Of a DNA stretch of 64,000 bases, positions 30,141 to 51,188 are shown piece by piece; position 1 is the stretch's first letter; each line of letters begins with the position of its first letter. Position numbers and translations under genes: made by a program. Below the pieces are notes generated by a model. The model was not told the DNA's origin. It did not search any database and saw nothing but the letters and a program-made list of their open reading frames with translations. The DNA comes from Paracoccaceae bacterium (GTDB taxonomy: Bacteria > Pseudomonadota > Alphaproteobacteria > Rhodobacterales > Rhodobacteraceae): positions 1-64,000 of the forward strand of contig JANZZL010000120.1 in NCBI GenBank assembly GCA_026419405.1, read 5' to 3'.

Positions 30141-30177
30141 GCGGCGGGCCGGACAGGCTGCGTGCCGGGGTGGAAGT

Positions 30178-30498
30178 GCAGGCTTCTGTTGCCAGGTGCC
30201 TGCGGACCCCGCCGGAACGCTGCTGGGCGCCCGGACTTTGGTTTCGGTCACCCGAGCTGCTTACGCAGCCAGAGCCACCGGAGCATGGTTGTCGTTGGCA
30301 ACTATGCGATCTGCACCGATAACGGTGGTAGCTCACCGGGCGAAAGCCATCCCCTTTACACGTTCGTCGATCCTGTTTCGGCCCCCTGGTCCTCCAACGA
30401 AGGATCTGGTGGAGCCGCCGGGTACCGCCCCCGGGTCCGATCCGCTTATTACGGGCGCGTTTATCGCCATAGTCCCGGCTTGCGCCGGAACACTTCCA
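30178..30498 (-). ncRNA. ssrA: tmRNA, circularly permuted two-piece form
   Basis: tmRNA rescues stalled ribosomes and adds a degradation tag. On the minus strand the acceptor piece comes first and ends in GGCGGCTCCACCA with its CCA at 30407. A 21-base spacer (30406-30386) follows, then the coding piece starting GGGGCCGAAACAGGATCGAC at 30385. GGGGCCG (30385-30379) pairs with CGGCTCC (30417-30411), seven pairs including the G3-U70 wobble that marks alanyl-tRNA synthetase substrates. The tag frame follows the resume codon GCC. The order is that of alphaproteobacterial permuted ssrA. The outer ends are estimates: a GCAGGC/GCCTGC hairpin closes the 3' side at 30178-30203, and the 5' end is near 30498. 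Confidence 0.92.
30261..30299 (-). other. tmRNA tag reading frame
   Basis: Thirteen codons from the resume codon GCC (30299-30297) to TAA encode ANDNHAPVALAA. The ending VALAA and the AND start fit the proteolysis tags of this bacterial group. The stop codon lies in the loop of a GCTGC/GCAGC stem, as in other tmRNAs. Confidence 0.93.
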
Positions 30499-30534
30499 AG
30501 ATAGGAAGCGCCGCGCCCGGCTGCAAGCGGATTG

Positions 30535-48991: not shown

Positions 48992-49348
48992 ATGCCCAAG
49001 GGCTACTGGGTCGTGCTTTCGGAGGTGATCGACGGCGTCCGGTTCATGCAGCGCGTCGAGGCGGGTCTCGATGCGCTCGAGCGCACGGGCGGACGGCTTC
49101 TCGTGCGGACCGAGGCCGAGGTGAGGGCAGGGGCCCCGAAGCGGCGCGTGGCGATCGTGGAGTTCGAGAGCCTGGCCGAGGCCCGGCAGCGGTTCGAGGA
49201 TCCGGCCTACCAGGCGGCGCTGCGGATCTTCGACGGCATCGTCGACTACGATTTCCTGATCGCCGAGGGCGCCCCCGAGGAGCCGCTCGCGGCCGGGCGC
49301 ACGGTGTCCCCCTCCTGGGGGGTTGCGCGGCCCCCCGAAACCGGCTAG
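48992..49348 (+). CDS. DUF1330 family protein
   Basis: The 118-residue product matches the small ferredoxin-like DUF1330 family. It has an N-terminal KGYWVVLSEV, a middle segment RVAIVEFESLAEARQRFEDP and YQAALRIF. The members are usually about 95 residues, so the C-terminal 20 residues (Pro/Ala-rich) are extra. The role of the family is unknown. GGAG precedes the ATG. The stop codon lies inside the -10 region of the rpsB promoter. Confidence 0.82.
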   Translation: MPKGYWVVLSEVIDGVRFMQRVEAGLDALERTGGRLLVRTEAEVRAGAPKRRVAIVEFESLAEARQRFEDPAYQAALRIFDGIVDYDFLIAEGAPEEPLAAGRTVSPSWGVARPPETG

Positions 49349-49351
49349 ACG
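49323..49351 (+). promoter_or_regulatory. Candidate rpsB promoter
   Basis: TTGCGC (49323-49328) and TAGACG (49346-49351) are 17 bases apart and overlap the end of the DUF1330 gene. A start near 49358 would begin the folded leader at 49366. The match to consensus is moderate. Confidence 0.45.
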
Positions 49352-49365
49352 CGCGCCACTTCACA

Positions 49366-49447
49366 GGCGGATGCGGGCCGAGCGGGGGAGAAATCCCCGC
49401 CGGTCCGCCGGTTGTCCCGGAGCCGATCCGGGGTAAGGGCATCCGCC
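49366..49447 (+). promoter_or_regulatory. Folded leader RNA of rpsB-tsf
   Basis: A 9-bp helix, GGCGGATGC (49366-49374) with GCATCCGCC (49439-49447), encloses three hairpins: GCGGGG/CCCCGC (49382-49400), CCGG/CCGG (49400-49411) and CCCGGA/TCCGGG (49416-49432). A multi-branch junction of this kind is typical of r-protein leaders and riboswitches. The probable role is feedback control by ribosomal protein S2. I cannot assign it to a named RNA family. Confidence 0.6.
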
Positions 49448-49475
49448 GAGGCGCGAAACCGGAAAGGACAAAGGC

Positions 49476-50243
49476 ATGGCGCTCCCCGAGTTCACCCTGC
49501 GCCAGCTCCTCGAAGCTGGCGTGCACTTCGGCCACCAGACCCAGCGTTGGAACCCGCGCATGGCGCCGTACATCTACGGCGAGCGCAACGGCATCCACAT
49601 CATCGACCTGACCCAGACGGTCCCGATGCTCGATGCCGCGCTGCACGTGATCCGCGAGACCGTGGCCAAGGGCGGCCGCATCCTCTTCGTCGGCACCAAG
49701 CGGCAGGCCCAGAAGCCGATCGCCGAGGCCGCCGAGAAGTGCGCGCAGTACTACATGAACCACCGCTGGCTGGGCGGCACGCTGACCAACTGGAAGACGG
49801 TGAGCCAGTCGATCCAGCGCCTGAAGCAGATCGACGAGACGCTGGCGCACGGCGCCGAGGGCCTCACCAAGAAGGAGCGCCTCGGGATGGAGCGCGAGCA
49901 GCAGAAGCTGCAGGCCTCGCTCGGCGGCATCCGCGAGATGGGCGGGCTGCCGGATCTGCTGTTCGTCATCGACGTCAACAAGGAGGATCTGGCGATCCTC
50001 GAGGCGAAGAAGCTCGGCATCCCGGTCGTGGCGGTGGTCGATACCAACTGCTCGCCCGAGGGGGTGGACTACGTGATCCCCGGCAACGACGACGCGGCGC
50101 GCGCCATCGCCCTCTACTGCGACCTCGCGGCCCGCGCCGCGCTCGACGGCATGTCGGCGCAGCTCGGCGCTGCCGGCGTGGACATCGGCGCGCTCGAGGA
50201 GGCGCCGGTCGAGGAGGGCGTCGGCGAGGACGCCGAGGCCTGA
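49476..50243 (+). CDS. rpsB: 30S ribosomal protein S2
   Basis: S2 is a structural protein of the small subunit. The 255-residue product has [19 protein letters not shown] at the N terminus, the conserved [12 protein letters not shown] segment, and [18 protein letters not shown] with [25 protein letters not shown] short acidic tail follows. GGAAAGGA lies upstream of the ATG. It is followed by tsf, the usual bacterial pair, and preceded by a folded leader. Confidence 0.98.
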
Positions 50244-50269
50244 CCGGCCGCCGTCATCCCACCGATTCC

Positions 50270-50289
50270 GGGCGGGGCTATCCCCGCCC
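50270..50289 (+). promoter_or_regulatory. Hairpin between rpsB and tsf
   Basis: GGGCGGGG and CCCCGCCC form a perfect 8-bp stem with a 4-base loop in the 75-base gap. No T tract follows. It may lower read-through, act as a processing site or stabilise one part of the message, allowing different S2 and EF-Ts levels. Confidence 0.6.
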
Positions 50290-50318
50290 GCAACCGATCT
50301 TCCGCAAGGAGAGAGTTC

Positions 50319-51188
50319 ATGACGATCACCGCGAGCATGGTGAAGGAGCTGCGCGAGATGACCGGCGCCGGCATGATGGATGCCAAGAAGGCGCTGACCG
50401 AGACCGGGGGCGACATGCAGGCCGCGGTCGACTGGCTGCGGACCAAGGGGCTCGCCAAGGCCGCCAAGAAGTCGGGCCGCACGGCCGCCGAGGGGCTCGT
50501 CGGCGTCGCCGTCCGGGGCGGCACGGGGGTTGCCGTCGAGGTGAACTCCGAGACCGACTTCGTCGCCCGCAACCCGGACTTCCAGGCCATGGTGCGCGCC
50601 ATCGCCGAGGCCGCGCTTGGCGTGCACGACCTCGAGGCGCTGAAGGCCGCCCGGATCGGCGACAAGACGGTCGAGGAGACGCTGACCGAGGCGATCGCCC
50701 GGATCGGCGAGAACATGACCCTGCGCCGCATGGCCCGCATCGAGGGCGAGACGGTCGTTGCCTACGTGCACAACGCCGCGGCCGAGGGCATGGGCAAGAT
50801 CGGGGTGCTGGTGGCGCTGAAGGGCGGCGAGGCGATCGGCAGGCAGGTGGCGATGCATGTCGCCGCCGCGAGCCCGGCTGCGCTCTCGGCCGCCGACCTC
50901 GATCCCGCCGTGGTCGAGAAGGAGCGGCAGATCCAGATCGAGATCGCGCGCGAATCCGGCAAGCCGGAGGCGGTCATCGAGAAGATGATCGAAGGCCGCA
51001 TGAAGAAGTTCGCCGCCGAGGTCACGCTGCTCGGCCAGGCCTTCGTGGTGAACCCCGATCTGACGGTCGCCGAGGCGGCCCGGCAGGCGGGCGCCGAGAT
51101 CACCGGCTTCGTCCGCCTCGCGGTCGGCGAGGGGATCGAGAAGAAGCAGGAGGACTTCGCCGCCGAGGTGGCCAAGCTCGCCACCTGA
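50319..51188 (+). CDS. tsf: Elongation factor Ts
   Basis: EF-Ts is the nucleotide exchange factor for EF-Tu. The 289-residue product has the N-terminal UBA-like region [20 protein letters not shown], the EF-Tu-contacting core [15 protein letters not shown] with the TDF motif, and a C-terminal [26 protein letters not shown] precedes the ATG. A 10-bp hairpin 20 bases after the stop probably ends the operon. Confidence 0.97.

Follow-up and report, generated by a model that had tools for sequence, protein, structure and literature searches.

The window, a 64,000-nucleotide stretch from a Paracoccaceae bacterium, contains rpsB, the gene for ribosomal protein uS2, followed by tsf, the gene for elongation factor Ts, which is probably cotranscribed with it. 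A predicted promoter and a structured leader precede rpsB, and the features of the region are as follows:

49323-49351, plus strand: predicted promoter recognized by a conserved pattern, with -35 TTGCGC at 49323-49328, a 17-nt spacer, and -10 TAGACG at 49346-49351
49362-49365, plus strand: conserved CACA 5' of P1 (no variation at columns 1, 3, and 4 among 30 relatives)
49366-49374, plus strand: 5' strand of the closing helix P1, 9 bp here and 7 bp common to relatives (inverted repeat; covariation)
49375-49406, plus strand: P2 hairpin, with outer helix 49375-49379/49402-49406 and inner helix 49383-49388/49394-49399 (comparative evidence)
Within 49375-49406, plus strand: P2 cap GGGGGAGAAATCCCC, with a conserved tip (leader alignment)
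49408-49413, plus strand: J2-3 segment CCGGTT, 5' strand of a pseudoknot (complementarity; pairing in the family and class-wide)
49414-49434, plus strand: P3 hairpin, with core 49416-49421/49427-49432 (inverted repeat; 92% of cells paired) and a length that varies among relatives
49439-49447, plus strand: 3' strand of P1 (inverted repeat; covariation)
49448-49451, plus strand: conserved GAGG after P1 (GGAGG/GGCGG in other Alphaproteobacteria and GGAGG in Escherichia coli)
49457-49462, plus strand: AACCGG, 3' strand of the pseudoknot (complementarity; pairing in the family and class-wide)
49463-49468, plus strand: Shine-Dalgarno sequence AAAGGA, with core AGGA at 49465-49468, separated from the ATG by 7 nt and conserved in the alignment
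49476-50243, plus strand: rpsB (uS2), 255 aa (Pfam PF00318, E 4e-97)
50319-51188, plus strand: tsf, elongation factor Ts (Pfam PF00889, E 6e-69)

The predicted -10 of rpsB overlaps the TAG stop of an upstream DUF1330 open reading frame. The gap between rpsB and tsf holds a G+C-rich hairpin, GGGCGGGGCTATCCCCGCCC, at 50265-50292, and similar short-loop hairpins appear to be present in this gap in several relatives (L006, L011, L019, and L026); such a hairpin could tune the ratio of S2 to EF-Ts. Elsewhere in the window, a permuted two-piece alphaproteobacterial tmRNA gene lies on the minus strand at 30175-30530 (RF01849, 272 bits).

The leader is organized around P1, a perfect 9-nt inverted repeat (GGCGGATGC/GCATCCGCC) at 49366-49374 and 49439-49447. 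The 82 nt spanned by the repeat are predicted to form a multibranch fold of -55.4 kcal/mol (z = -3.81), and none of 200 dinucleotide shuffles was as stable. P1 ends 28 nt before the ATG at 49476, and both this distance and the 9-bp closing helix agree with the sequence-only reading of the locus. That reading had also counted three internal hairpins. Only two, P2 and P3, appear in the fold of minimum energy, and the comparison of relatives gives the same two; the supposed third, CCGGTT, lies between them and is complementary to AACCGG, which is located past P1 and beyond the 82 bases, and the two form a pseudoknot. The whole element therefore extends from ∼49358 to ∼49468. The AACCGG strand is separated from the AGGA core by 2 nt and from the ATG by 13 nt. 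Over a longer leader of 146 nt, folding was no better than that of shuffled sequences (z = -0.96). Because the stability of the longer leader is unremarkable, energy alone is insufficient and comparison across relatives settles the case.

Leaders upstream of rpsB were compared among genomes of the same family, each from another genus. We aligned 30 of them with MAFFT, in an alignment that was not fitted to structure, and scored P1, P2, P3, and the pseudoknot on top of it. Four leaders (L017, L036, L064, and L135) were left out of the counts on account of contig ends, their orientation, or a shifted start codon. Across the 30 leaders, standard pairs occur in 96.4% of cells, relative to 86.7% after shuffling and at most 62.1% when slid by one column. 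Double-sided changes are present in 75 cells versus 15 in shuffled alignments, and 14 of 28 pairs have at least one such change versus 7.5. None of 500 shuffles reached the observed pairing, number of double-sided cells, or number of covarying pairs. All seven aligned pairs of P1 have double-sided changes and 99% of its cells are paired; the absence of covariation in this helix had been named as the outcome that would count against the sequence-only reading, and the opposite was found. The three stems of the junction are each well paired (99% of cells in P1, 92–98% in the helices of P2, and 92% in P3). It is hardly credible, then, that the structure arose because G+C-rich intergenic DNA happened to fold. 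The G+C content of 72% in this region and the unexceptional folding energy of the 146-nt leader are as chance folding would have it, but the double-sided changes at every P1 pair, unmatched by shuffled or slid controls, and the presence of the element in nearly all genomes of the family argue strongly against it.

Within the family, pseudoknot columns are 99.4% paired and the sequence is invariant except for one cell. Pairs that do not vary are, within the family, explained just as well by conservation of the sequence for some other reason, so the comparison was widened to other genera of the class. The class set has ∼60 leaders, nearly all from other families, plus that of E. coli. In four leaders (L058, L077, L091, and L112), automatic extraction misplaced the pseudoknot strand, and these were read by eye. 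Class-wide, 96.0% of cells in the pseudoknot columns are paired, compared with 8.8–64.3% when slid by one to three columns. Compensatory forms include CTGGT/ACCAG (L077, L092, L101, and L105), CCAGT/ACTGG (L136), and TTCGT/ACGAG (L112), and the form in E. coli is GGGGT/ACCCC. The distance from the 3' strand of the pseudoknot to the ATG is 13 nt here, with a median of 14 nt in the family and 17 nt in the class, and is 24 nt in E. coli.

A covariance model built from the 30 leaders gives one match per genome, located beside rpsB, in 144 of 149 genomes of the same family, and the copy in the window is the sole match in its genome. The same model also matches 51 leaders from sequenced genomes of Rhodobacterales or their close relatives and, in a sample of 153 genomes of the class, 21 genomes, three of which belong to the same family. 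The matches with E ≤ 0.001 in the genome surveys are in front of rpsB.

Judged by these sequence comparisons, the control element in the leader is genuine and conserved, and it represents the Rhodobacterales form of the rpsB motif that Meyer et al. (2009) described. The motif was reported in most Alphaproteobacteria, in front of rpsB, and consists of P1, a three-stem junction with a variable P2 of up to eleven base pairs and a variable P3, and a J2-3 segment that pairs with a 3' extension after P1 (PMC2704228). The element in the window has the location of the motif, at 49362-49469 right before rpsB as in relatives, and its J2-3 pseudoknot, CCGGTT/AACCGG. It differs from the motif as described in 2009 in that P2 is a two-part, G+C-rich hairpin with the cap GGGGAGAMAUCCCC and in having CACAGG rather than CACACG at the foot of P1; throughout the class, as in E. 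coli, P1 is preceded by CACA, CTCA, or CGCA. The E. coli rpsB leader, known as t44, shares the position upstream of rpsB, the pseudoknot, and the layout CACACG...P1...CGTGGAGG...AACCCC, and differs in the greater spacing of its pseudoknot from the ATG. The t44 RNA model (RF00127) was nevertheless rejected as a description of the element, being above threshold in none of 21 genomes (the genome of the window and 20 related ones) with a positive E. coli control.

The rpsB motif is represented in Rfam by RF01815, which has a curated gathering threshold of 40 bits. In the window, RF01815 gives no rpsB match at that threshold or at E ≤ 10, and it exceeds the cut-off in 0 of 149 genomes of the same family. 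Several family leaders nonetheless score 20–40 bits at the right place, and 7 of 19 leader loci of other Alphaproteobacteria are above threshold. The lack of a matching Rfam family is thus explained by poor sensitivity of RF01815 in this clade and not by absence of the family. Since the 40-bit threshold serves annotation and does not describe anatomy, the element is assigned to the motif and is not counted as a hit of RF01815. The initial statement that the structure matches no RNA family holds for Rfam models but not for the literature, as the leader is a copy of a published motif. The element itself is essentially known, its motif having been described in 2009. The new details are modest: Rfam has a blind spot in this family, P2 carries a conserved cap, and a pseudoknot lies beside the Shine-Dalgarno sequence.

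The P2 cap is found in 64 of 69 family leaders versus 6 of 63 leaders of other Alphaproteobacteria. Reuse of the cap as a motif elsewhere was ruled out: across 61 genomes, most matches to GGGGAGAMATCCC are in the rpsB leader, and by our own estimate the few outside it are near chance level. The cap is absent from five divergent family leaders (L053, L055, L057, L060, and L063), four of which (all except L057) keep the CCGGT/ACCGG pseudoknot. This retention of the pseudoknot in capless leaders suggests that the cap is dispensable or recently acquired.

Among 68 family leaders, 66 carry the pattern TTG[C/A/T]-N17-TA upstream of the element at constant spacing, against a mean of 0.25 and a maximum of 2 in shuffled sequences. 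Like the helices, the pseudoknot, and the single rpsB-leader copy per genome, this promoter pattern is read directly from the genomes compared. Its position predicts that transcription begins around 49358, shortly before P1. Start sites have been mapped in Magnetospirillum, and there the start precedes the Rfam rpsB match by 6–7 nt (PMC9549626). Together, the predicted and mapped starts indicate that the leader is most likely the entire 5' UTR.

Control of the motif by S2 is known only from E. coli, where the rpsB leader has been linked experimentally to repression by S2 (PMC2704228, PMC10931766): excess uS2, aided by bS1, represses translation of rpsB-tsf through it (PMC10931766). By analogy, the 5' leader of the rpsB-tsf operon in the window, as a copy of the rpsB motif, very probably allows uS2 to repress its own translation, and of the earlier proposals that of an S2-associated autoregulatory leader has the best support. 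In the proposed mechanism, uS2 in excess of available 30S subunits would bind the leader and stabilize its fold, with bS1 taking part in the case of E. coli. The stabilized pseudoknot, 2 nt from the AGGA core, would prevent the 30S subunit from reaching the ribosome-binding site, and less S2 and EF-Ts would be made. As the pseudoknot adjoins the Shine-Dalgarno sequence, stabilization by uS2 could directly hinder 30S binding; in this lineage the binding of uS2 is expected from homology of the leader with that of E. coli, and the occlusion from the position of the pseudoknot. The E. coli operator reportedly does not include the ribosome-binding site (PMC10931766), so the step of direct occlusion may not be general. 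A more tentative idea, possible but doubtful, is that the Rhodobacterales leader is mechanistically distinct from that of E. coli, with the cap offering uS2, bS1, or another factor one more site of recognition and the pseudoknot directly masking the ribosome-binding site. The cap may also resemble the helices of 16S rRNA to which uS2 binds.

Other roles for the leader are less probable. The fold might act without any regulator, as a stabilizer of the 5' end or a standby platform for ribosomes that raises mRNA lifetime or translation for an operon with high expression. A transcript predicted to begin with a stable structure and a pseudoknot that adjoins the Shine-Dalgarno sequence would both suit such a role, but we consider it unlikely because compensatory changes in the pseudoknot across the class and repression by S2 in E. 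coli point to a fold that is recognized in trans. It is very unlikely that rpsB is controlled through the leader by a factor other than uS2, whether a small-molecule ligand acting on a riboswitch or another protein. A three-way junction with a pseudoknot does resemble riboswitch layouts, and a conserved cap that is rare in other Alphaproteobacteria could bind something lineage-specific. A riboswitch, however, typically governs multiple genes of a single pathway. The genome-survey matches with E ≤ 0.001 lie only in front of rpsB and not of metabolic genes, as expected for a ribosomal protein leader, and the E. coli member of the motif responds to S2. Rfam riboswitch models likewise have no match in the window at threshold and none near the element at E ≤ 10, so that the suggestion of a ligand-sensing RNA, also made from the sequence alone, is left unsupported. 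Translational self-repression by uS2 is the reading that these observations favor.

What appeared to be an orphan RNA is thus explained as a ribosomal protein leader that almost all genomes of the family carry and that has gone unannotated because RF01815 misses the clade. Rebuilding RF01815, or building a separate model for the clade, would allow the element to be annotated and close this gap in sensitivity. Because its pseudoknot is adjacent to the Shine-Dalgarno sequence, the leader offers a way to test how translation is blocked by S2 binding, in a lineage where that step should be simplest.
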